NCBI GenBank assembly: GCA_016218825.1
Contig: JACRCV010000104.1
Location: 1 to 64,000, forward strand
DNA length: 64,000 nt
Direction: 5' to 3'
Origin: Deltaproteobacteria bacterium
GTDB taxonomy: Bacteria; Myxococcota; XYA12-FULL-58-9
The notes beneath the pieces are model-generated. The model saw nothing but the letters and a program-made list of their open reading frames with translations. It did no database searches and was not told the origin of the DNA. Shown piece after piece: positions 1,869 to 33,578 of this stretch (positions are counted from its first letter, which is position 1; each line of letters opens with the position of its first letter). Made by a program: the position numbers and the translations under genes.

Positions 1869-3416
1869 TCACGGCTTGCAGCTGATGGTGTTCATCGCTA
1901 CGTCGACCCAAGAGAACACGAACGAGGCGTTGAACGCCGAGCCCTTGGTGACGCTGCCGGAGTTGACGAGCAGAAGCGGCCCGCCGTCGATCATCAGGAC
2001 CGTCATCGTCGAATAGCTCCCGGGGCATCCGGTCGAGGCGCCGGCGCAGAAGATCGAGCTCGTCGAGATGTCGCTCGCGGACCACCCGGTCGAGGCGGCG
2101 AAGACGCTGAGGACGTTGCCGGAGCCGGCGACCAACCAGTCTTCAGTCATCGCCAGGCCCGCCACGTCGCCCGGGTGCAGCAAGATGATCCAATCGACCC
2201 TCGCGTACGGGAACGCGGCGGTCACCGGCATGCTCGACCAGGTGCGCTGTACGACGTCGACGAGGTACAGGTTGGCGCCGGCGGTCACCAGCAGGGTCTC
2301 GGCGGCGAAGTCGGCCCCCAGGGTCTTCCCCTTCGGCACCAGAACCATCGAGTCGATCGCGGTCGTCGGCGGCTGCGTGCCCGCGGTGCCGAAGGCGTCC
2401 CAGAGCTGCTTCAGCGTGAACACGAGGCTGATCTTGCCGCTGGTCTTGTCCCAGAGAGCGCCGTAGCCGTCCCAGGTCAGGAGCGCGCCGCCCCCGAGCC
2501 CGAGGTACCCGGCCGGCACCCAGGCGAGCGAGTTGAAGCTCGACGGCAGGACCGCGCCCTCGTCCACCTGGCCGTCGCAGTTGTTGTCGATGCCGTCGCA
2601 CTTTTCGCCCTGGCCGCCGTGCAGCGCCGGATCGGCGTCGTTGCAGTCGTTGCCGCCGCAAGCGGCGTCGCGGTAGCCGTCGCCGTCCTTGTCGGGGCAG
2701 ATGCACTTGTAGGCGTTGCAGACCTTGCCGCCGGAGCAGCTGCCGCAGCTCAGGGTTCCGCCGCAGGGGTTCGGGGGCGCACCGCACTCGTAGCCCGACG
2801 CCTGGCAGGTCGGATCGACGCAGGTGTCACAGACGTTGCCGCTGCAGCCGCCCACGCACGCGGTGTCGATGGACGCGTAGGTGCAGGTGCCGCTCCCGCA
2901 GGTGCCGGTGGCGGCGTAGGTGCGCAGGCTGGTGGCGCTCGCGCAGTGGCTCGCGGGGGGCTGATTGCAGACGACGCCGGCGCACAGGTCCGTCGGACCG
3001 GGGCCGGGGCCGGGGCCCGGACCGGGGTCACCGCCGGGCTTGCAGGCGTGGGTCGCGGCGTCGCAGCCCGCGGCGCAGTTGCTGTCCACCGAGGCGTACT
3101 GGCACTCGCCCGCCACGCACAGACCGCTCGCGCCGTAGGTCCGCAAGGTGTTGGCGTCGACGCAGGCGGCGGCCGGAGGATCATCACACGCGATCCGACC
3201 GCACGGGTCGCAGTCGCGACTACATTGCCCGCTGCCACAACATCCGAAGCCCTTGCCGCAGTCCTCGTCCAACTGACACACCGCGCAACAGCCCTCGGCG
3301 CAGGCGCTGGTGCCCGGGGGACAACCGCCGCTCGCCGGGGTTCCGTCCGGTGCAGCGCCACAGCCTTCGAGGACCAAGCCGGCGACGACAACAAACAGCG
3401 CAGGGGTCTTTGACAT
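1869..3416 (-). CDS. Cys-rich MopE-like lipoprotein (paralog B)
   Basis: The product is 515 aa and collinear with the protein encoded at 64-1608: signal peptide with lipobox L-E-G-C, Cys-rich modules, the MopE-like Asp-rich motif ending CDGIDNNCDG, and a beta-rich C-terminal half. A (GP)n linker between two Cys modules is encoded by a GGGGCC-type hexamer run near 3000-3028; paralog A has a shorter Pro/Ala linker there. AAGGAG precedes the ATG at a good distance. The gap to paralog A is about 260 bp, so each copy may have its own promoter. The protein probably sits on the outer membrane or cell surface. The function is not known. Confidence 0.85.
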   Translation of the reverse strand: MSKTPALFVVVAGLVLEGCGAAPDGTPASGGCPPGTSACAEGCCAVCQLDEDCGKGFGCCGSGQCSRDCDPCGRIACDDPPAAACVDANTLRTYGASGLCVAGECQYASVDSNCAAGCDAATHACKPGGDPGPGPGPGPGPTDLCAGVVCNQPPASHCASATSLRTYAATGTCGSGTCTYASIDTACVGGCSGNVCDTCVDPTCQASGYECGAPPNPCGGTLSCGSCSGGKVCNAYKCICPDKDGDGYRDAACGGNDCNDADPALHGGQGEKCDGIDNNCDGQVDEGAVLPSSFNSLAWVPAGYLGLGGGALLTWDGYGALWDKTSGKISLVFTLKQLWDAFGTAGTQPPTTAIDSMVLVPKGKTLGADFAAETLLVTAGANLYLVDVVQRTWSSMPVTAAFPYARVDWIILLHPGDVAGLAMTEDWLVAGSGNVLSVFAASTGWSASDISTSSIFCAGASTGCPGSYSTMTVLMIDGGPLLLVNSGSVTKGSAFNASFVFSWVDVAMNTISCKP

Positions 3417-5291: not shown

Positions 5292-5960
5292 TCACGGCGC
5301 GGCGTCGGGCGCGTTGTCGATGCGCAACAGTCGACGTTTGTTGCCGCCGTGCGGCGCGTGACAGGTCAGGCAATCGACCGCCGCCGGGCCGTGCGGCCTC
5401 TCCTTGGGATCGTGGCAGCGCGCACACAGCTCCCGACCTACCCGCGCCAGCAAGGAACGGTTGTCGGAGAAGTGCGGCGTGTGGCACGACAGGCAGGCGT
5501 CGGCGGCCACCGGGCTGTGCACGAACTTGTAGTCCGGGAGCGCGTGGCACTGGCTGCAGGCCTCGGCGTCGGTCGCGACCCGCAGCAGGTGCGGCCGGAG
5601 GGTGGAGTGGGGAGCGTGACACGCGAGACAGGCCTCGGCGGTCAGCGCGCCGTGCACCATCCTCGCGGTCTTCATGCCGTGCACGATCGTGCCGTGACAG
5701 CCGCGACACGGCCCGGCGTTCTTCACCATCCAGACGTTCTGCGGGTGGCCCGCGGCCTTGACCTCCGGCCCCGGCCCGCGGTGGCAGGCCTTGCACTTGC
5801 CCATCCGGGTGGGCTTGTGCAGGGTCTGCAGGGCGCCGGTCAGGATAACGTCGTGACAGCCACGATCGGCGCAGTTGGTCTGCAGCGGCTCGGGCGTCAG
5901 CGCGGGGCCGGCGGCGCCGCCAGCCATCAGAACCGCGAAGCAAGCCGGCGCGAACATCAT
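5292..5960 (-). CDS. Periplasmic octaheme c-type cytochrome
   Basis: The product is 222 aa from the ATG at 5960, chosen because GGAGGA lies about 8 nt upstream and the protein then begins with a proper signal peptide ending in an Ala-Gly-rich cleavage region. It has eight heme-attachment motifs: one CX4CH (CADRGCH) and seven CXXCH (CKACH, CRGCH, CLACH, CSQCH, CLSCH, CARCH, CLTCH). Several are followed by APH or TPH, the pattern of doubled-CXXCH cytochromes. It probably carries electrons in the periplasm. It is divergent from the gene at 6123, with a palindrome in the shared upstream region. It could pair with the larger multiheme proteins at 24423-32493, but nothing here proves a partner. Confidence 0.85.
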   Translation of the reverse strand: MMFAPACFAVLMAGGAAGPALTPEPLQTNCADRGCHDVILTGALQTLHKPTRMGKCKACHRGPGPEVKAAGHPQNVWMVKNAGPCRGCHGTIVHGMKTARMVHGALTAEACLACHAPHSTLRPHLLRVATDAEACSQCHALPDYKFVHSPVAADACLSCHTPHFSDNRSLLARVGRELCARCHDPKERPHGPAAVDCLTCHAPHGGNKRRLLRIDNAPDAAP

Positions 5961-6025
5961 CGGCGGTTCCTCCAGGAGCCAATGGCCCGAAGTCGGTTGG
6001 GCATACGTGCCACAGTTCGGCATGG

Positions 6026-22775: not shown

Positions 22776-24251
22776 ATGCGCCGTGCGCGCCTCGACCCCC
22801 AACAACCGCAGGCCACGATGACGCCCGACGCCGAGAACGTTTCGCCCGCCGCCGCTGCCAACACCGGCCTGCCGCCGCTCGAGAGCGACGAGGCGCTCTT
22901 CAAGACCGACGCCGATCACCCCCCGGAGGCGAAGGACCTCGCCGCGAGCCCGTCGAAACGCATCGTTCGCTTCCTGGCCTCGGAGCGGGCGATGCACTGG
23001 GCGATCGCCGTCCCGTTCCTCATCTTGATGGCCTCGGCCGCGGTCTTGGTCCTCGTCTACAACCCGCACCCGCACCGGCCGTATCGCGAGATCGTCTCCT
23101 TGGTGCATCGGATCGCCGGCGTGTTGCTCATCAGCCTGCCGCTCGTGACCCTGATCGCCGGCTTCCGTCAGATCGGCATGCACCTGCGCAACGTCAAGGA
23201 GGCGTGGTTCTGGACCTTCGACGACATCAAGTGGCTGATGCTGATGCCGTTCGCGGTGCTCAGCAAGAAGGTCAAGCTCCCGGAGGAAGGGAAGTTCAAC
23301 GCCGGCGAGAAGCTCAACTTCATGATGGTCACGGCGACCTACCCGCTCTTCAGCCTGACCGGCGTCGCGATCTGGGGCGGCTACTTCGGCGCCATCCCGT
23401 GGCTGGCGCACATCGCCCTCGCGGTGATGGCGACGCCGTTGGTCTTCGGGCACATGTACATGGCGATGATCAACCCGGCGAGCCGCAAGGGCCTGTCGGG
23501 GGTGTTCTCCGGCATGGTGGATCGCGCCTGGGCCAGCCACCACTACCGCCGCTGGTTCCGCGAGAACTTCGCACACGAGACCGTGGCGGCACGCGCGGAC
23601 AACTGGCGCCGCAAGACGCTGGGCGACTGGGTCCTGGACGGTGGCGAGACCGTTCGCCACCAGACCGGGCCCGGACTCAGCCCGACGCCGATGGGCGACG
23701 GCAAGCGCGAACGGTCGATCACCAAGTCCACCGCCCGCGCGGTGGTGAAGACCGGCCTGTCCCTGACCCCGGCCACCGGCTTCTTCGCCGGCGTCTTCGG
23801 CGCCGCGCTGTTCGCGGCCGGTGCCTATCTCGCCTCGCCGTCCCGGCACTCGACCGCGTACGTGGTCGGTGAGCAAGCGTTACGCCTCAGACCCGCGCCG
23901 GACGCGGCGTCGATCGCCGGCGCGCCCCTCACCGACGGCACGGCGGTGATCCTGATCGAGCAGCTCGGCGACTTCGGTCTGGTCCGGGACGCCTCCGGCC
24001 GCGTCGGCTACCTGGCGAAGAGCGTCATGTCGGATGAAGAGCCCGCGCCGCCGGCCGCTCCGGTGCCACCGGCGGTCGAGCCGGCGGCGGTGACGCCTCC
24101 CGTACCGGCGCCGGCGGTCGCCGACACCAAACCCGGCCCCGCGGCGACCACCGACAGCCCGAAACCGGCGGCCAAGGTCGCCGAGCCGCCGAAGCCCGCA
24201 CCCAAGCCGAAGCGCGGCCACTCCGGCCGCAAACCGCGGCGCGGCCGCTAG
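22776..24251 (+). CDS. Membrane cytochrome b (FdnI/b561-like) with C-terminal SH3-like domain
   Basis: The product is about 491 aa. Four membrane helices at about 70-240 carry histidines placed as heme b ligands ([40 protein letters not shown]), the pattern of formate dehydrogenase gamma subunits and related quinol-linked cytochromes b. A fifth helix (about residues 330-350) is followed by an SH3-like beta domain (about 368-425, [14 protein letters not shown]) and a Pro/Ala/Lys-rich tail. It probably exchanges electrons between the quinone pool and periplasmic cytochromes. No formate dehydrogenase catalytic subunit is nearby. The next gene downstream on the same strand encodes a 36-heme lipoprotein, an apt electron acceptor. 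The tail and SH3 domain are unusual for the family. Confidence 0.8.
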
Positions 24252-24422
24252 CCGTCTGCACCCGGGAGAGCACGCCGCCCCACACGCGCACACACCGATC
24301 CTGTCGGCCTCGCGGGCGCCGCTGCGCCTGCAAGACAGTGTGGACGGCGAGCTGGGAATCGCGCACAATCAGGGGCATCACGATCGCCGCGAGCGGTCCC
24401 ACATCGGCCGAGGAGAAGCCGC

Positions 24423-27400
24423 GTGACCATGGTTCGGATCCGTGTGCTCGTGATCGCGACGCTCTTCGCGACCGGCGCCTGCAGCAAGCTGGTGGAGGTT
24501 CCGGGCTCCAGCTGCGCGGCGAACGACGACTGCTCCGCGTATCCGTCTTGCGCCCGCCGCCTCGACGCCTGCGTCTGCAAGGACAGGGCGTGCTACTTTG
24601 ACCCCGACGCCCCGGTGGTCGACGAAGCCACGAACGATCAGTTGATCGGCTGCCGCGAGTGTCACGGGAGCACCCGCAACGCTGCGCCGCCGGTGTCGAC
24701 GGCCGGCGACCTCGACACCGCCGCGCTCGGGGTCGGCGCCCATCAGACCCACCTCATCGGCGGCAACCACTCCCGGTCGGTGTCGTGTACCGAGTGCCAC
24801 GTCGTGCCGCGCGCCACGAACGCTGCCGGTCACATCGACTCGCCGCTCCCCGCCGAGGTCACGTTCGGCGACCTCGCCAACGGCGGCGGCCGAACCGTCG
24901 CCGCTTGGGACCGTTTGAGCGGGACGTGCTCGGGGTACTGCCACGGCGCGGCGATGCGCTTCGGGCCGACCTACGGCCGGCCGATCTGGACGGTCGTCGA
25001 CGGCACCCAGGCCCAGTGCGGCACCTGCCACGACGTGCCGCCGCCGACGCCGCACCCGTCGTCCACCGAGTGCTCGCTGTGCCACCTGCCGACCGCAGGC
25101 CCGAACCAGACGATCGCCAACCGCGACACCCACGTAGACGGCGTGCTCCAGGTGACCGGCGGTAGCTGCAACACCTGCCACGGCAACGCGCAGAACGCCG
25201 CGCCACCCGCCGATCTGGACCCCGACCCGAACGACGTCACGACCGAGATCGGCGTCGGCGCCCACCAGACCCACCTCGCCGGCGGCGCCGCGTCGCGACC
25301 GACCGGGTGCTCGGAGTGTCACGTGGTGCCGCAGCAGGTCGACGAGCCGGAGCACATCGACAGCGCGACGCCGGACCGGGCCGAGATGAGCTTCGGCCCG
25401 ACCGCGACCGCCGGGCTGATGAGCCCCGTTTGGGATCGCGGCAGCGCCACGTGCAGCAACACCTACTGCCACGCCGGCCGGGACCGGAACGGCACCGCGA
25501 CGGGCCGCAAGCCGACGCCGGTGTGGACCGAGGTCGGCGCCGGCGAGGCGGCCTGCGGCGCTTGCCACGGCCTGCCCCCGAACACGCCGACCCACGCGGG
25601 GATCGGCGCCACCGATTGCTCCGTCTGTCACTTGCCGAGCGCCGGGCCCAACAGCACGATCGCGGCGCGCGAGCACCACGTCGACGGGATCCTGGACGCG
25701 AGCAGTGAGCCGTGCAACGCCTGCCACGGCGACGCCACCGGCGCCGCGCCCCCGAAGGACCTGAACGGCGACAGCGCGCCCACCGATCCCGAGGTCGGGG
25801 CGCACCAGCGCCACATGGCGGGCGGCGACGTCTCGTCGCCGGTGCCCTGCGACACCTGCCACCTGGTGCCGCAGAACGTCGGCGATCCGAACCACAACGA
25901 CACGCCGACGCCGGCGGAGATCACCTTCAGCGGCCGCGCGGTGGCGATGAACGACAGCCCGAGCTGGGATCACGCGACCCGCACCTGCGCCGGCACCCAC
26001 TGCCACGGCGCGAACTCTTCGATCGGCCTGCAGCCGGTGCTGGACGCCACGGGCGCCCAACTCTGGAACCCGGCGCCGGTCTGGAACGAGCCCGCCGCGG
26101 TCGCTTGCGGCTCCTGCCACGGCCTGCCGCCGAGCCCGCCGCACCCGCAGACCAAGCGCTGCGGGATCTGCCACCAACCGACGGTCGCCTCTACCTTCGA
26201 CTACGGCAACCCGACCACCGCCGCGAGCCCGGGTGTCGGCGATCGCACCCGTCACGTCGACGGCGTCGTCGACGTCGATCGCACCGTCGTCTGCACTGCA
26301 TGCCACGGCACCGCCGGCGTCAACGCCGCGCCGCCCTCGAGCCTGACCGGCAACACCGGCAGCGCCGATCCGAAGGTCGGCGCCCACCAGGCGCACCTCG
26401 CGGGCGGCCAGCACTCGAAGGCGGTCGACTGCGCCGAGTGCCACATCGTCCCGACCCAGTACACCGACGCCGGGCACATGACCGACGGCGACGACGTCGC
26501 CGAGCTGACCTGGGGCGCGCTGGCGTCCACCGGCGTCTCGCCGACGCGGACCGGGGCGCAGTGCAGGAACTACTGCCACGGCGCGACGCTGACCGGCGGC
26601 AACCCGCAGTCCCCGAGCTTCAACAGCGGTCCGATCACGAGCTGCAGCAACTGCCACGGCGCCCCGCCGACGACGCCCTATCACGCGAGCGCCACCGCGA
26701 CGACCTGCGACAAATGCCACGAGACCGCCGGGCCGGGCGGCACGGTCGCCGATCGCAGCCGCCACGTCGACGGCGTCGTCCAGGCGGCCGCGGCGTGCTC
26801 CGCGTGTCACGGTGACGCATCGCGGCCGAGCAGCACCGCCAACGCGCCGCCCATGGACCTCCAGGGCTTGGCCGCGTCGTCCAAGGTCGGCGCGCACCTC
26901 GCGCACCTGAGCCCGACCAACTCGGCGCCGGCCGCTTGCGACGCCTGCCACGTCGTGCCGCTGACGATGGATGATTCCGGCCACCGGGACAGCGACAACG
27001 TCGCCGAGGTCACCTTCCACGGCCGCGCCATCGCCGCCAGCGGGCCGGCGATCGGCTACACCGCGGCGACCCTCACCTGCGCCAACACCTATTGTCACGG
27101 CGTCATCACCGCCGGCGGCACCAACAACGATCTCGCGGTCTGGGACGCAGGCGGCGCCGCCTCGGCCTGTGACGCCTGCCACGGCGTGCCGCCGCCGACC
27201 TCCGGGCACGGCGCCGTCATCGCGGCGACGCCTTGCGGGGGTTGTCACACCGACACCGCGAGCTCCACCGCCGCGACCACCATCAAGGCACCGCAGTACC
27301 ACGTCGACGGCGTGGTGCAGGTGAGCGCCTGCGGCGCCGCCTGCCACGAGGTCCCACCGACGACCGGCGCCCACGGGATGCACGCCCAGACGCTGGGCTT

Positions 27401-28631
27401 CGCCTGCGCCACCTGCCACGGCCACAACGGCAGCGGCCCGACCCACAACCAGACCGGCTGCACGGCTGCCGGGTGCGCGATACCGTCGGCGAACGTCGAC
27501 ATGGTCTTCGACCTGACGCGCACCTTCCCCGGCGGGACCTCGATGCGAAACGGCGGCACGCCCGCCTACGCCCGGAGCACGAAGACCTGTCAGGTGGGCT
27601 GCCACAACCCGGTGCCCGGGAAGCCCCCCGAGACCCCGAACTTGAGCCGCCAGGTCACCTGGACCACGACCGGGCTGAGCTGCACCGGCTGCCACGACGA
27701 GATCGGCACCGCGTTGCCGCGGAGCCACGCGCTCGGCACCCCGATCGCGAGCTCGTGCAGTGGTTGTCACGCGCCGACCGGCCACACCGCCGGCGCCGTG
27801 GTGCTGAAAGATCCGGATCCGAGTGACGCCCACACGCCGTCGCTCGCCGACAAGGAGGCGCTCTGCAAGACCTGCCACGACGGCGGCGCCGGGACCTACT
27901 TCGGCGGCCAGACCGCGGTCAACGTGCTCGTCGGCTGGACCTCGTCGTCGCACGCGAGCCAGGGGCTCAAGTGCCTGACCTGCCACATCACCCACGTGTC
28001 GACGCCCAACACCACGGCGAAGATGGTCGACCGCACCAAGACCGGCTGCAACGCGACCGCGTGTCACGCCGACAAGACCAACGCCGGCGGCCCGTTCACG
28101 CTCGCCGGCTCCCACCACAAGGTCGACGAAGGGGTCGCCGGGGTGTCCTTGACCTGCAGCAACTGCCACAACCCCCACCTGTCGCAAGCGCCGCCGCTCG
28201 CCGCCGTCAACCCCGACAACAGGTGGCAGCTCTTCAACCTGCCGGCCACCGCCGCCACGCGGAAGATCAACTCCGGCGGCAACTACTCCGGGTTCTGCCT
28301 CTCGTGCCACGACGCCAGCCCGCCGGCCGGCGTCACCGGCGCGCTCGATCTGCGATCGACGATGAACGGCGGCGCCGAGGTCACGCAATTCAAAGACGGC
28401 GGCGCCGCCTTGCACCGGGAGCAGCACGGCGGCTGGAACTGCGTCAGCTGCCACGACTGGCACGGATCGACGGGCACCTCCGGGACCAACCGCGGCCGAC
28501 TGCTGTTACCGTTCCTGACCGTGAACGCCTTCCCGTACAACGGCAAGAACAACTGCAGCATGCCGTCGGCGTCTTTCGGGCGTACGTTCATCGGCACGTT
28601 TTACAGCTACACCAGCTTCAGCTGTCACTAG
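24423..28631 (+). CDS. Giant multiheme c-type cytochrome lipoprotein (about 36 hemes)
   Basis: The product is 1402 aa. A signal peptide ends in lipobox ATGAC, so it is a lipoprotein, probably on the outer membrane. I count 36 heme motifs: 28 CXXCH, 4 CX3CH and 4 CX4CH. The first 25 fall into five repeats of 168-193 aa starting near residues 77, 249, 431, 624 and 792. Each repeat has five motifs in fixed order: CHG, CHVVP, a CX3CH or CX4CH, CHG.PP and CH(L/E/Q/T). This is the Geobacter-type CxxxxCH/CXXCH layout. One further site (CTAAGCA) lacks the His. Ribosome site AGGAG lies 7 nt before the GTG start; ATG six nt later is the alternative. Its stop codon overlaps that of the convergent porin gene in a CTAG palindrome. 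Confidence 0.92.
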   Translation: MTMVRIRVLVIATLFATGACSKLVEVPGSSCAANDDCSAYPSCARRLDACVCKDRACYFDPDAPVVDEATNDQLIGCRECHGSTRNAAPPVSTAGDLDTAALGVGAHQTHLIGGNHSRSVSCTECHVVPRATNAAGHIDSPLPAEVTFGDLANGGGRTVAAWDRLSGTCSGYCHGAAMRFGPTYGRPIWTVVDGTQAQCGTCHDVPPPTPHPSSTECSLCHLPTAGPNQTIANRDTHVDGVLQVTGGSCNTCHGNAQNAAPPADLDPDPNDVTTEIGVGAHQTHLAGGAASRPTGCSECHVVPQQVDEPEHIDSATPDRAEMSFGPTATAGLMSPVWDRGSATCSNTYCHAGRDRNGTATGRKPTPVWTEVGAGEAACGACHGLPPNTPTHAGIGATDCSVCHLPSAGPNSTIAAREHHVDGILDASSEPCNACHGDATGAAPPKDLNGDSAPTDPEVGAHQRHMAGGDVSSPVPCDTCHLVPQNVGDPNHNDTPTPAEITFSGRAVAMNDSPSWDHATRTCAGTHCHGANSSIGLQPVLDATGAQLWNPAPVWNEPAAVACGSCHGLPPSPPHPQTKRCGICHQPTVASTFDYGNPTTAASPGVGDRTRHVDGVVDVDRTVVCTACHGTAGVNAAPPSSLTGNTGSADPKVGAHQAHLAGGQHSKAVDCAECHIVPTQYTDAGHMTDGDDVAELTWGALASTGVSPTRTGAQCRNYCHGATLTGGNPQSPSFNSGPITSCSNCHGAPPTTPYHASATATTCDKCHETAGPGGTVADRSRHVDGVVQAAAACSACHGDASRPSSTANAPPMDLQGLAASSKVGAHLAHLSPTNSAPAACDACHVVPLTMDDSGHRDSDNVAEVTFHGRAIAASGPAIGYTAATLTCANTYCHGVITAGGTNNDLAVWDAGGAASACDACHGVPPPTSGHGAVIAATPCGGCHTDTASSTAATTIKAPQYHVDGVVQVSACGAACHEVPPTTGAHGMHAQTLGFACATCHGHNGSGPTHNQTGCTAAGCAIPSANVDMVFDLTRTFPGGTSMRNGGTPAYARSTKTCQVGCHNPVPGKPPETPNLSRQVTWTTTGLSCTGCHDEIGTALPRSHALGTPIASSCSGCHAPTGHTAGAVVLKDPDPSDAHTPSLADKEALCKTCHDGGAGTYFGGQTAVNVLVGWTSSSHASQGLKCLTCHITHVSTPNTTAKMVDRTKTGCNATACHADKTNAGGPFTLAGSHHKVDEGVAGVSLTCSNCHNPHLSQAPPLAAVNPDNRWQLFNLPATAATRKINSGGNYSGFCLSCHDASPPAGVTGALDLRSTMNGGAEVTQFKDGGAALHREQHGGWNCVSCHDWHGSTGTSGTNRGRLLLPFLTVNAFPYNGKNNCSMPSASFGRTFIGTFYSYTSFSCH

Positions 28632-29980
28632 CGGCGATAGCCGAGCTGCACGAAGCCGGCGTGGATGACGGCGCCGGGCTCCAGCACCCCGTCGTACTCC
28701 GCCAGCAGGTGCACACCCTTCAGGGTCTCCAAGAGCTCGCCCAACGCCAACCACAGCCCGCCGCGCAGGTCGATGCTCTGCACCTTCTGCCCGCCGGCGC
28801 GCCGCACGCTCCGCAACAGGATGGCACCGGCGTCGCCGCCCCACACCTGGTGGTCCATGCCGACACCGAGCGCCGCCATCTGCACGTCGTCGTTGAACGC
28901 GCGTCGATGGGTGTAGTTGAGATCGGCGTACCCGAAGCGCGGCGCCCACTTGAAGCCGACGACACCTTGGGCGGCGTTCGCGGCCGCGGTGTGACGACGG
29001 TCGTAGCGAACCCGCACGTAGGGAGTCAGGCCGGCGCCGACCGGCACGTTGTTCGTGAAGCGCATGCTCGTCACCCGGGTGCCCAAGGGCTCGGCGCCGT
29101 CGAGGACGTAGCCCAGCTGGCGCCGGCGCTCGTTCAGGAAGTCCGTCCACCAGCGGTTCGGGACCACGGTGTGGGTGTGGGTCACGCTCAGGTTGCTGTC
29201 GACCGGCGCGACGCCGCGGTAGCGCACCACGCCGATGAAGCTCGTCAAGTCAGGGCCGTTCTTGGTCCCGGTGTCAAACAGGCCGCGCGGCGCCAACAGG
29301 TCGACGATCGCGAAGCCGGAGACCACGAGGTCCTGGCTCAGACGCGCGTAGCTCCGCTGGGTCAGGAAGGCGCGATCGGTCGTGCCGCGATAGAACGACA
29401 GCACCGCGCCACCGGCGTGATTGCTCGCCTCCGAGCGGTGGTCGTAGCCGATGCCGCCACCGACGAACTGGGTGTTCACCGCGCCGGTGAACGGGTGCGG
29501 CAACAACCCGCCAAAGGCCAGCGCGGTCGTCTGACTGCTGACCTTGAGATCGATCTCGCCGCCGTCCACCTCGACCATGCCCAGCGGCCGCACCACCTGA
29601 CGGCCGAGACTCAAACGCCAAGACTCCGCCGAGCCCAACGCCGCATAGGCCTCGCTGACGGTCTGGCGCCGCGGCGTGGTGGTGTCCGACGGCAGCCGCA
29701 GACGCGCGTCGGCTTGGAGCGCCAACGGCGCGCCGAGGAGCCGCGACCCACCGCCCACGAACCGGAGATCCGAGAACGACACGTAGCCCGGCATGTCCAG
29801 GTCCTGGGCGTAGGTGTGCGCCAGATCGAGCTGCAGGCGGAGCTGGTTGTCGGGAGCGACGCCGGCTTCCGGCTGTGGCGCCGCCACCTGCGGCGCCGCG
29901 TCTGCCGCCCACGCCGGGGCCGCGCCCCGGAAGATCACCACCGCGGCGGCGATCGCGATCCTGACGCCAGCCGAACTCAT
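28628..29980 (-). CDS. Porin-like outer-membrane beta-barrel next to cytochromes
   Basis: The product is 450 aa with a signal peptide (about residues 1-26, ending PAWA) and alternating hydrophobic/polar strands throughout, as in a large beta-barrel. Examples are LRLQLDLAHTYAQ, WRLSLGRQVVRP, SMRFTNNVPVG and VQMAALGVGMDH. The ATG overlaps the stop of the 33-heme cytochrome gene (ATGA), so the two are translationally coupled. It is best read as the barrel of a porin-cytochrome conduit, by analogy with MtrB or OmbB, but no diagnostic motif (such as the N-terminal CXXC of MtrB) is visible. A plain porin or an unrelated barrel is possible. There is no terminal Phe; it ends GYRR. Confidence 0.7.
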   Translation of the reverse strand: MSSAGVRIAIAAAVVIFRGAAPAWAADAAPQVAAPQPEAGVAPDNQLRLQLDLAHTYAQDLDMPGYVSFSDLRFVGGGSRLLGAPLALQADARLRLPSDTTTPRRQTVSEAYAALGSAESWRLSLGRQVVRPLGMVEVDGGEIDLKVSSQTTALAFGGLLPHPFTGAVNTQFVGGGIGYDHRSEASNHAGGAVLSFYRGTTDRAFLTQRSYARLSQDLVVSGFAIVDLLAPRGLFDTGTKNGPDLTSFIGVVRYRGVAPVDSNLSVTHTHTVVPNRWWTDFLNERRRQLGYVLDGAEPLGTRVTSMRFTNNVPVGAGLTPYVRVRYDRRHTAAANAAQGVVGFKWAPRFGYADLNYTHRRAFNDDVQMAALGVGMDHQVWGGDAGAILLRSVRRAGGQKVQSIDLRGGLWLALGELLETLKGVHLLAEYDGVLEPGAVIHAGFVQLGYRR

Positions 29981-32493
29981 GGCGGCACCGCGCCGTGGAT
30001 GACGCTCCAACCGACCGGGGAATGGCAGTCTTCGCAGGTGGCGGGATAACCCGAGCTGACGTGGTTCGGTACCGTGGCTGGATCGAGATAGGCGGCCATG
30101 TGGCAGCCGGCGCAGGTGTCAGGCGTGCCGAGGTACACACCCTGGCCGTGGCAGTTCTTGCAGCGCACGAAGTTGTGCCGCCCGACCAACGGGAACTCCA
30201 AGTGCGAGCGCCGTGCCGGTACGAAGGCGGTCTCGGTGTGACAACGATCGCAGGGCCGAAGCTCCGCGGTGTGCAGCGGGTCGGCCACCCGGGCGGCGTC
30301 GGCGGCGTGACAGATCTCGCAGTCGGTCGGCGTCCCCTGGTAGGTGCCGATCCCGTGGCAGCTGTCGCACTCCAGGCGGCGGTGCCGGCCCTTCAGCGGG
30401 AAGCCGGTCGCGGTGTGCGAGAAGCGCGTCTGCTTCCACTCGATCTGCAGGTGACAATCGCCACAGAACGGGCCGAGACCATTGTGGTGCCGGTCGTCGT
30501 CGATGTGACAGGTTGCGCAGACCTCACCTAGGCCCGCGAGGAGGCGCTGCGCCGTATGGCAGCGATTGCAGGGCAGCGTCCTGTGAACGCCATAGAGACG
30601 GAAGATACCGGTGTCGTGCGTGGTCGCGCTGACGTCCTTGAACGCCGAGGTCCGGTGGCAGGTCTGACAGGCGGCGCCGTAGCGGCCCTGGTGGTTGTCG
30701 GCGTGGCACTCGGCGCACTTCTTGCCGATCACCGGGAAGGTCCGATCGAGCGGCGGCGGTGCGACGCCCTTGGTCCACCCGACCTTCGGCGGCGCCGCCG
30801 GCGGCGCCTGGTGACAGAACGGACACGGCACGGTCAGGTGCGTACCCTCGCGCGCGAACTTCGTGTGACTCTCGTGCACGAAGGCCGGCGCGCCTTTGGC
30901 GGCGGTCGGATGGCAGCGTTCGCACGTCGGCCCGAGCTTGCCCTTGTGCGGTTCCTTCTCCGCGTGGCAGTCGACACACTTCAGCCGCCCGGTCTTGTAG
31001 GCCTTCGCGGGATGGCACTTCTGGCACTCCACCTTGGCGTGCTCGCCGTCGATCTTGAAGGCGGCGATGGCGTTGTGGTTGAACTGGATGAGCGCGAACT
31101 TGACCGCGGTGTTGTGGCAGCGGTCGCAGCGGTCGCCGAGCGTGCCCTTGTGCTTGTCCTCGTGACAGGCGTTGCAGGTGAGCTTGCCGGAGCGGTAGTT
31201 GCCCTTGCCGTGGCACTTCTTGCAGTCGCCCTCGAGCGCCAGGGTCGCGTGCGCGCCGGTCAGCGGGAAGCGGGAGTCCTTGTCGTGGTTGAACTTCAGC
31301 TTCTTTGACCCACCCTCGATGTGACAGTCGGTGCAGGCCTTGGCATCGAACTGGTGCTTGTGGGCGTCGGTGTGCGCGTGACAAGCCCGGCAGTCGGTCG
31401 ACTCGTGGCGCTCGAAGTCGGTCGGGCCCTTGCCGCGGTGGCACTGGCGACAGCTGAGCCGGGCGTGACGGGCGTGCAGCGCCAGCTTGGTCTGCTTGCC
31501 GTGCTCGAAGCCGATCACCCTGGTGTCGGCGGTGTCGTGGCAGTCGCCGCAACGAAACTTCGCGAACCGCTTGCGGTGCGGATCCTGGTGGCACGACTCG
31601 CAGGCTCGCCCGGGCTTCTGGTCCTTGTCCTTGTGACACTTGTTGCAGCGCACGTCGTCGTGCTTGCCCGCGAGCGCGAAGGTGGTCTTCGCCGCGTGGT
31701 TGAAGTCCACCTGCGCCATCGCTCGAACGGGGTCGTGGCACTCCGGACAGGTCAGCTTGACGTAGACCTTGCCGTGCGAGCTCTTGTGGCAATCGACGCA
31801 ACGGCGGCGCTTGTCGAGGGACATCTTGCCCTTGAGGTGGCACTTGCCGCAGGCGATCTTGCCGTGCTTGCCCACGAGCGGAATCCCGGCCGCCGCGGCG
31901 TGATCAAAGGGGATCTGCGCCGCGGTCATCTCCTTCGCGGTCAGGCCACCGGCGACGTGACAGCGCGTGCACTCGGCGCGCAGCTTGGCGTCGGTGAACT
32001 GGTGCGGGTTCTTGTGACAGTGGTCGCAGTCGGCGTCGAGGCCGACGTAGCTCACGTGCTTGGCGCCGGGGCTCTGCTTGTGACAATTGATGCACTTGGT
32101 CTTGGCGTGCAGGCCGGTGAGCTCGAACCCGGTTCGCTTGTGCTCGAAATTGGTCTGGCCGCCGACCTTCACCCAAATCACGACCTCACCGGCGCGTCCC
32201 TTGTGCTCCTGATGACAGGTCAGGCAGGACTCGTCGGTCTTGGCGTGCAAACCGTGGCCTTCGCTGATCGCTCTCTTCAGATCGTCGTGCTCGTGACAGC
32301 CGAAGCAGCTCAGGCTCTTCCGGCCACCGCGCGCGTCGTGGCACTTGAGGCAACCGAGCGGTGACTCCCACTCGGCGTGCGCGTCCGAGAGTGGGCCCGG
32401 CGCCAGGTGCAGAAAATCCGTCTGCGCCCACGCCCACGCCGGCGCCCACAGGATCACGAGCGCCCCCACCGCAGCGGGCCAAGTGCGTGCCAT
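29977..32493 (-). CDS. Soluble 33-heme c-type cytochrome
   Basis: The product is 838 aa from the ATG at 32493; this start gives a clean signal peptide (ARTWPAAVGALVILWAPAWAWA) and a GAGGG ribosome site. An ATG at 32511 would add six residues. I count 33 CXXCH motifs at intervals of roughly 20-30 residues, all canonical, and there is no lipobox, so it is probably a periplasmic soluble protein. Many motifs follow H.KV.C..CH or G.H..L.C..CH, which fits distal His ligation and a chain of short cytochrome modules. It precedes the porin gene with an ATGA overlap. It could bridge the periplasm to an outer-membrane barrel. The heme density (one per 25 aa) is very high. Confidence 0.92.
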   Translation of the reverse strand: MARTWPAAVGALVILWAPAWAWAQTDFLHLAPGPLSDAHAEWESPLGCLKCHDARGGRKSLSCFGCHEHDDLKRAISEGHGLHAKTDESCLTCHQEHKGRAGEVVIWVKVGGQTNFEHKRTGFELTGLHAKTKCINCHKQSPGAKHVSYVGLDADCDHCHKNPHQFTDAKLRAECTRCHVAGGLTAKEMTAAQIPFDHAAAAGIPLVGKHGKIACGKCHLKGKMSLDKRRRCVDCHKSSHGKVYVKLTCPECHDPVRAMAQVDFNHAAKTTFALAGKHDDVRCNKCHKDKDQKPGRACESCHQDPHRKRFAKFRCGDCHDTADTRVIGFEHGKQTKLALHARHARLSCRQCHRGKGPTDFERHESTDCRACHAHTDAHKHQFDAKACTDCHIEGGSKKLKFNHDKDSRFPLTGAHATLALEGDCKKCHGKGNYRSGKLTCNACHEDKHKGTLGDRCDRCHNTAVKFALIQFNHNAIAAFKIDGEHAKVECQKCHPAKAYKTGRLKCVDCHAEKEPHKGKLGPTCERCHPTAAKGAPAFVHESHTKFAREGTHLTVPCPFCHQAPPAAPPKVGWTKGVAPPPLDRTFPVIGKKCAECHADNHQGRYGAACQTCHRTSAFKDVSATTHDTGIFRLYGVHRTLPCNRCHTAQRLLAGLGEVCATCHIDDDRHHNGLGPFCGDCHLQIEWKQTRFSHTATGFPLKGRHRRLECDSCHGIGTYQGTPTDCEICHAADAARVADPLHTAELRPCDRCHTETAFVPARRSHLEFPLVGRHNFVRCKNCHGQGVYLGTPDTCAGCHMAAYLDPATVPNHVSSGYPATCEDCHSPVGWSVIHGAVPP

Positions 32494-32609
32494 CCTACCC
32501 TCGCGCTTCATCGCTTGCTGACACAACTCATCATCGTGATGACGCCACTGATCGTCGCAAACACTGGCACGGATTCGTGATGCGCGGCAAGGCAGCGGCA
32601 CGCTCTGCG

Positions 32610-33578
32610 TCAGCCGCGCTCCACCCCGGTCGCAGACGCCGCGGCGCCCACCCACACGAGATCGGTGCCGGTCAAGCGCAGGATCTGGTCCGCGACCCTG
32701 ACCTTGCGCCAGGCGAATCCCGACAACAGCTCGCGCGGCGAGGTCGCGGTCGCATGCTCCGAGAGGCCGGCGGCGGCCGCGATCACGCCGCACAGCTCGG
32801 CGGCGGAATAGCGCGCCCGTAGCTGCCGTGCACCAACAGCGCCATGGAGCTTGGCGAGCTTGGCGCGGTTCTCCTCCAGGAACAGCAAGTGATGGCGATA
32901 GCTGGGCTGCGGCAGGCCCAACAGGCGCTGCAGCGCCACCTGCGTCGCCGTCGACAGGGCGATGTCCCGACCGCGGACCACCCGGGTGACCCCGAGGTCG
33001 GCGTCATCGACCACGACCGCGAGATTGTAGGCCACCGCGCCGTCCCGACGGCGCACCACCGGATCACCGAGGGCGGTGGCCGGCGTCTGGCTGAGGTCGA
33101 GGCCGCTTTCGTCGGCGAGCGCCAGTCGGGCGTCGTCGAGGCGGGCGCGAATGACGCCGGTCACCGACCGCCAGTCGCCGCCGACCACCTGTGCCCGGCA
33201 GGTGTTCGGGTAGACCCAGCCGCCATCGGCGCCGCGCACGCCATGCGCCTTGATCTTGCTGCGGCTGCAATCACACCGGTACAGGCGCCCCGCCGCCGCC
33301 AGCCGGTCGAGCGCCGCCCGGTGGCGCTCGTCCTGCCGGCTCTGCAGCACGACCTCGTCCCACTCGAGGCCGAACCAACCGAGGTCGCCCTGCATCGCGG
33401 CCTCCCACTCCGGCCGCGACCGCTCGGGATCGAGGTTCTCGAGACGCAGTGACAGGCGGGCGCCGCGAGCGCGCGCGTCGAGCCAACACAACAGCGCCGC
33501 GAGCAGCGTTCCGGGGTGCGCGAGTCCAGTCGTCGAGGGCGCGAAACGACAGCGGTCTACTAGCGTGCCACGATCCAT
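32610..33578 (-). CDS. gluQ: Glutamyl-Q tRNA(Asp) synthetase
   Basis: The product is 322 aa, the usual length. It has the class I HIGH-like signature ([22 protein letters not shown] at 21-24), zinc-ligand-like residues (RCDCS and YPNTC) and a KLAKL motif in the KMSKS position ([10 protein letters not shown]). It lacks the C-terminal anticodon-binding domain of GluRS. It glutamylates queuosine in tRNA(Asp). The start overlaps the end of a 54-aa membrane-protein gene, so it belongs to the addB-addA operon. No strong ribosome site precedes the ATG, which fits translational coupling. Confidence 0.88.

Follow-up and report, generated by a model that had tools for sequence, protein, structure and literature searches.

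A 33-heme cytochrome and a porin-like barrel as a candidate PCC3-related electron conduit in a genome of the Myxococcota

The DNA examined here is a 64,000-nucleotide stretch (the window; positions 1 to 64,000 of contig JACRCV010000104.1, assembly GCA_016218825.1) from a deltaproteobacterium assigned to the Myxococcota, and its locus is contig C87 of the 6.54-Mb draft genome. An original prediction had joined four neighboring genes into a giant porin-cytochrome conduit for extracellular electron transfer: a quinol-linked membrane cytochrome b, a lipoprotein with 36 heme motifs, a porin-like barrel, and a 33-heme cytochrome. Open reading frames (ORFs) and motif counts place the four genes at the positions and in the layout proposed, including the convergent orientation of the lipoprotein gene, and the reading as a conduit is supported as the barrel adjoins the giant cytochrome and this pair is conserved in relatives. 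From the sequence we assign a probability of roughly 0.72 to the proposal that the two minus-strand genes, those of the 33-heme cytochrome and the barrel, form a two-part trans-outer-membrane electron conduit related to PCC3. In this model, the exported 33-heme protein would fold into eleven triheme c7-like units, all with bis-histidine hemes. Starting close to the inner membrane, it would cross the periplasm and enter the barrel, which would insulate it through the outer membrane. Electrons would pass from the inner membrane along this wire to an external acceptor, with the lipoprotein cytochrome possibly serving as the terminal at the cell surface. The inner-membrane donor may be a b-type protein with two hemes, of the kind that relatives encode as a fusion with Fe-S and, often, FAD/NAD(P)H domains.

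The ORF at 29977-32793 on the minus strand holds 33 CX2CH motifs, compared with a mean of 0.48 in shuffled versions of the protein, and the predicted count is exact. A signal peptide (...WAPAWAWAQ) and the alignment of homologues both favor the start already chosen in the original prediction, the ATG at 32493, giving an 838-residue protein in which no lipobox was found. The protein is matched by PF14522 and consists of 11 triheme c7-like units of ~70 residues each, or 24.7 residues per heme. Similarly, its 13 homologues contain 10, 11, or 12 triheme units, equivalent to 30, 33, or 36 hemes. All thirteen conserve 30 CX2CH motifs together with 30 further histidines, while the six homologues with 33-36 hemes conserve 33 CX2CH motifs and 35 further histidines. 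The presence of 35 additional conserved histidines for 33 hemes suggests bis-histidine coordination throughout. The homologues also share a linker that is always located between heme motifs 22 and 23 and is proline-rich in the 33-36-heme forms.

Heme number and length are linearly related in a published correlation, with ~27 hemes for a 200-Å periplasm and 630 Å for 86 hemes (PMC7096707). This corresponds to ~7.3 Å per heme, or ~240 Å for 33 hemes and ~160 Å for 22 hemes. If the correlation applies, the 33-heme protein, at ~240 Å (24 nm), would roughly match the periplasm plus the outer membrane. In extracellular respiration, the means by which electrons cross the ~20-nm periplasm is still an open question, and MtrA-type conduits depend on carriers in the periplasm. 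The 30/33/36-heme family is near the length required for periplasm and outer membrane together, which would make a one-molecule bridge a testable idea. We offer only tentatively, and as rather less than an even chance, the proposal that a single 30-36-heme molecule could span from an inner-membrane oxidoreductase to the cell surface through the barrel, with its length matched to envelope thickness in increments of three hemes, such that neither soluble carriers nor a surface cytochrome would be needed.

The barrel gene follows the cytochrome gene directly, and the stop codon of the first overlaps the start codon of the second in an ATGA, an arrangement from which translational coupling would be expected. 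The barrel ORF (28628-30010, minus strand) is best started at the ATG at 29980, giving a 450-residue protein with a signal peptide and no cysteine. No Pfam or NCBIfam match was found for the barrel, and a PDB sequence search with the cytochrome, the lipoprotein, and the barrel returned no match. The AlphaFold model of the barrel, a poor one (pLDDT 48.6), is strand-rich with 17 strands from residue 141 onward, and its best Foldseek matches are outer-membrane barrels at a TM score of ~0.3. We assign the protein as a putative outer-membrane barrel on the basis of the signal peptide, the strand-rich model, and the resemblance of the Foldseek matches to outer-membrane proteins.

Strong relatives of the barrel were found in only 2 of 96 other genomes (G008 and G029), and a phylum-wide profile search with the barrel added weak matches only, most of which adjoin cytochromes of 8-20 hemes while the rest lie at or near contig ends. 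A profile search with the 33-heme protein showed that ten genomes of the phylum encode full-length homologues, each with 30, 33, or 36 hemes. This genome carries three copies, and the others are in G008 (two), G016, G017 (two, one cut by a contig end), G023, G027, G029 (where a second homologue is truncated), G030, G050, and G052. Wherever the contig continues past the giant cytochrome gene, a barrel gene is present, which may follow the cytochrome immediately, follow a second cytochrome (G008 C41), or lie ~4 kb away in a different orientation (G029 C1331). Homologous cytochrome-barrel pairs occur in G008, G016, G017, G027, G029, G050, and G052. This genome itself has three paralogous pairs, with the barrel paralogues of contigs C18 and C103 each immediately following a 33-heme gene of its own; the ATGA overlap is also present in the C18 pair. 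The barrels behind the 30-heme cytochromes are longer, at 620-745 residues, and the small- and large-barrel families are homologous over their full length (hhalign 99.1%, E = 7e-19, compared with E of 0.3-0.9 for reversed or column-shuffled controls). The co-occurrence in relatives that the original prediction had proposed as a check therefore holds across several genomes for the barrel and the giant periplasmic cytochrome. A pattern scan for the barrel over 84,980 species returned two further genomes only, both of the same phylum, using one 9-residue motif that misses distant barrel forms. A plasmid search with the barrel and the lipoprotein gave no match, and neither did a PHROGs search.

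Smaller related conduits (L063, L064, L068, and L069) were also observed, which combine a periplasmic cytochrome of 6-20 hemes, an 8-10-heme cytochrome, a barrel, and an Fe-S/FAD/inner-membrane fusion protein. The smaller-conduit barrels share an N-terminal stretch (E about 1e-7 to 1e-8), and most of those at these four loci have an extra N-terminal domain. The periplasmic cytochrome of L069 carries an N-terminal PGPL motif.

The tight linkage of barrel and cytochrome in many genomes, with overlapping genes in this one, argues against a soluble role in which the 33-heme protein stores electrons in the periplasm as a capacitor and the barrel is an ordinary channel or secretion aid. That related barrels also accompany smaller multiheme proteins is a second argument against such a role. 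Large c7-type polymers such as GSU1996 have been discussed as capacitors (PMC10138318) and the barrel belongs to no known family, both of which fit a capacitor, and we consider this explanation quite improbable. It nevertheless belongs among several points that weigh against the two-part conduit. The AlphaFold model of the barrel is of low confidence and that of the 33-heme protein, with a pLDDT of 28, is meaningless, each alignment containing only three sequences. The gene for a PCC3-type inner-membrane protein is absent both beside the pair and from the window as a whole, and the single copy in this genome is on contig C103. The genome also has a COX1 oxidase, so external electron transfer is not its sole option.

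The gene of the lipoprotein cytochrome is convergent with that of the barrel and their stop codons overlap. The original prediction had assigned 36 hemes to this 1402-residue protein, and 36 motifs are indeed counted, of which only 28 are canonical CX2CH (mean of 0.26 in shuffled versions) and eight are variants, four CX3CH and four CX4CH. Covalent heme binding has been reported for such CX3-4CH variants (as quoted in PMC4245776). TIGR01904 and PF09698, both of which match the lipoprotein, are defined by the CX4CH...CX2CH arrangement. Two close paralogues are encoded in this genome. That on C18 (L026:6252-15587; 36% identical) has 3111 residues and 80 motifs, 63 CX2CH and 17 variant, and is likewise convergent with the barrel gene of that contig; it adjoins genes that by eye resemble ResB/CcsA cytochrome c biogenesis genes. 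The paralogue on C79 (47% identical) has 46 motifs, and no barrel was recognized in the flanks examined.

The proximity of all four genes raises the possibility of one full chain, in which the cytochrome b would take electrons from quinol, the 33-heme protein and barrel would conduct them, and the lipoprotein would be a dedicated outer terminal. Within this genome, the block of lipoprotein, barrel, and 33-heme genes is present only at the window locus and on C18, where it is kept despite identities of 36-57%. The cytochromes of these two loci are sisters in the cytochrome tree (support 1.000) with the C103 copy outside. A single origin of the three-gene block, followed by its retention over deep divergence, is therefore most likely and suggests a joint function. 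Additionally, the 33-heme gene and the barrel gene of G008 (L041) are separated by the gene of another lipoprotein cytochrome, one with 25-27 motifs; the present lipoprotein and this outer cytochrome gave no blastp match at E ≤ 1e-10. Against a full chain, the lipoprotein gene is convergent and not co-transcribed, no TIGR01904-type lipoprotein was found beside the barrel on C103 or at the barrel loci examined in other genomes, and the lipoprotein family, present in 54 of 189 genomes of the phylum, is widespread without a barrel. The proposed role of the lipoprotein as external partner is weak, as it recurs beside a barrel only on C18, and we regard it as no more than a possible extracellular partner of the conduit.

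The cytochrome b fared less well. It matches PF01292 and resembles the formate dehydrogenase gamma subunit at a score below the curated cut-off, and no close relative was found in 188 other genomes of the phylum, the best matches being generic ones with ~30-35% identity over part of the protein. On this distribution, the cytochrome b was rejected as a conserved conduit partner, and its predicted role as quinol partner is unsupported by conservation; relatives use another inner-membrane protein. A four-gene chain is consequently the less probable description, and we retain the two-part conduit of cytochrome and barrel.

The clusters of relatives encode a protein with 4Fe-4S motifs, often a FAD/NAD(P) domain, and a membrane region at the C-terminus. 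This region has two H-X13-H motifs, which in most cases take the form W-X3-H-X13-H, and frequently SGXXG. The H-X13-H signature is carried by the PCC3/PCC4 inner-membrane proteins, which are proposed to hold two b hemes (PMC5566968). The C103 fusion protein has both H-X13-H motifs, one strict W motif, and no SGXXG. Through a partner with NAD(P)H and Fe-S domains, the wire may be connected to redox pools of the cytosol as well as to quinones. A gene for a TPR-repeat protein lies in the same cluster as the fusion protein gene at L096, L028, and L042, and the N-terminal region of the fusion protein resembles a cyclic-nucleotide-binding domain (a weak Pfam match, in L091). A PCC3-type cluster was also found in Bacteroidota, on the Emticicia oligotrophica plasmid pEMTOL02 (NC_018749.1; L101 6742-15438), and encodes a stand-alone inner-membrane protein, an Fe-S/FAD protein, cytochromes with 23 and 40 hemes, and a barrel. 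Both Emticicia cytochromes align with the 33-heme protein (E = 9e-51 for the 23-heme one in a local blastp), while the Emticicia barrel aligns weakly with the present barrel family (E = 3.5e-4, probability 37%). These findings extend PCC3-like conduits to the phylum Myxococcota and to a Bacteroidota plasmid.

The original prediction named no characterized conduit of this size and layout, but the size by itself has precedents. In PCC3 clusters, the median heme number is 21 for periplasmic cytochromes and 34 for extracellular ones, which reach 85 (PMC5566968), and in Burkholderiales a 24- and 49-heme pair lies beside an OmbB-like porin (PMC7399161). Periplasmic PCC3 cytochromes of Gallionellaceae contain 21, 24, and 27 hemes (PMC10734462). 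The idea of a categorically new kind of conduit was dropped given this literature (PMC5566968, PMC10734462, PMC7096707). We found no functional characterization of PCC3-size clusters in the literature, and a search that lacked most subscription journals returned no description of the 30-36-heme form.

The present system is similar to PCC3 in its combination of a barrel, a very large periplasmic cytochrome, and a large cytochrome that may lie at the surface, in the inner-membrane protein of relatives with two H-X13-H and often SGXXG, and in periplasmic heme numbers that proceed in steps of three (21/24/27 in PCC3 and 30/33/36 here). The giant cytochrome aligns with the Emticicia 23-heme protein, through which it is linked indirectly to PCC3 proper. 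In contrast to PCC3, the periplasmic protein has more hemes, the inner-membrane protein of relatives is usually fused to Fe-S and often FAD domains, the possible surface lipoprotein belongs to another family (TIGR01904) and is convergent, and the barrel is small at 450 residues. PCC3 barrels are large, with up to 42 predicted strands. The described PCC3 hosts are mostly Proteobacteria. PCC3 is defined by a cluster that includes an inner-membrane protein with five transmembrane segments, two WX3HX13H motifs, and SGXXG; because the window cluster encodes no such protein, we describe it as PCC3-related rather than as a PCC3 member. PCC4 lacks an outer cytochrome, as do most loci of this family, and in one PCC4 subgroup the inner-membrane protein is accompanied by an Fe-S protein, but PCC4 contains three small periplasmic cytochromes of 4, 5, and 10 hemes (PMC5566968).

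The gene arrangement also recalls the Pcc clusters, both OmbB-OmaB-OmcB and the two-gene clusters of Anaeromyxobacter, in which barrel and periplasmic cytochrome are adjacent, some without an outer cytochrome, and whose predicted barrels of 18-22 strands are compatible in size with the present one (PMC4245776). The likeness is drawn from gene arrangement; the Pcc periplasmic cytochromes surveyed in 2014 have 5-14 hemes rather than 33 (PMC4245776). MtrCAB, MtoAB, and PioAB share the principle of a cytochrome in a barrel. They differ in the decaheme MtrA family, compared with 33 hemes here, and the present barrel matches no Pfam or NCBIfam family; the MtrA-type model TIGR03508 scores 33.5 bits against the 33-heme protein, far under the cut-off of 192.2. 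Similar to the 33-heme protein, the GSU1996-type cytochrome c7 polymers are chains of triheme c7-like units in one polypeptide (PMC10138318). GSU1996 has four units with one His-Met heme each, however, compared with 10-12 units with a conserved histidine per heme here. To our knowledge, GSU1996 has no barrel partner. Distinct to the present system are a periplasmic partner with 30-36 hemes, an inner-membrane partner that is fused in relatives, a barrel of small size, the occurrence of three copies in a single genome, and a convergent TIGR01904 lipoprotein.

Alternatively, the pair could import electrons supplied by Fe(II), Mn(II), or a partner cell, which is the direction proposed for the PCC3, Mto, and Pio clusters. 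Fe(II) oxidizers are the organisms in which PCC3 was described (PMC5566968), two-part conduits without an outer cytochrome resemble MtoAB and PioAB, and COX1 is present, all of which would suit import. RuBisCO was not found in the genome, and sequence cannot tell the direction of flow. The presence of COX1 without RuBisCO makes an autotrophic Fe(II)-oxidizing life by the Calvin cycle unlikely. We therefore view import as the more doubtful direction, with export appearing, weakly, somewhat more likely in this heterotroph.

The features of the locus are collected in Table 1. The G+C content at third codon positions is high in all four frames (0.86-0.94).

Table 1. Coordinates in the window of the cytochrome-barrel pair and adjoining features
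Feature	Position	Strand	Evidence
33-heme exported c-type cytochrome	29977..32493	-	CX2CH triads; Cytochrome_C7, E = 7.6e-35; homologues with 30/33/36 hemes
Putative porin-like outer-membrane beta-barrel, 450 aa	28628..29980	-	Signal peptide; strand-rich low-confidence AlphaFold model; Foldseek; paralogues; homologues beside giant cytochromes
ATGA overlap of cytochrome stop and barrel start	29977..29980	-	Sequence; ATGA also at the C18 paralogue
Pro-rich linker in the 33-heme cytochrome, between motifs 22 and 23	30718..30810	-	Linker at the same place in 13 homologues
Large lipoprotein multiheme cytochrome	24423..28631	+	TIGR01904/PF09698; 36 heme motifs; convergent with barrel here and at C18
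Cytochrome b561/FdnI-like membrane protein with C-terminal extension	22776..24251	+	PF01292, E = 2.5e-12

Other multiheme genes are present in the genome. A 3959-residue frame on C36 (L029 5280-17159) contains 45 CX2CH motifs, or 55 with variants. On C7, a small classic-looking conduit (L030 16131-18448) consists of a 417-residue barrel and a lipoprotein cytochrome with 12-13 heme motifs, with two 19-heme proteins nearby. Genes for 16-heme and 26-heme cytochromes lie in a row on C26 (L037 6416-15726), and a 735-residue protein encoded a few genes upstream, for which no Pfam or NCBIfam match was found, is perhaps an outer-membrane protein. Within the window, a small cytochrome with 7-8 heme motifs (5292-6023, minus strand) has no evident tie to the conduit. 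Two neighboring lipoprotein-like ORFs of 514 and 515 residues (64-1608 and 1869-3416, minus strand) have similar cysteine-rich N-termini and apparently represent a tandem duplication.

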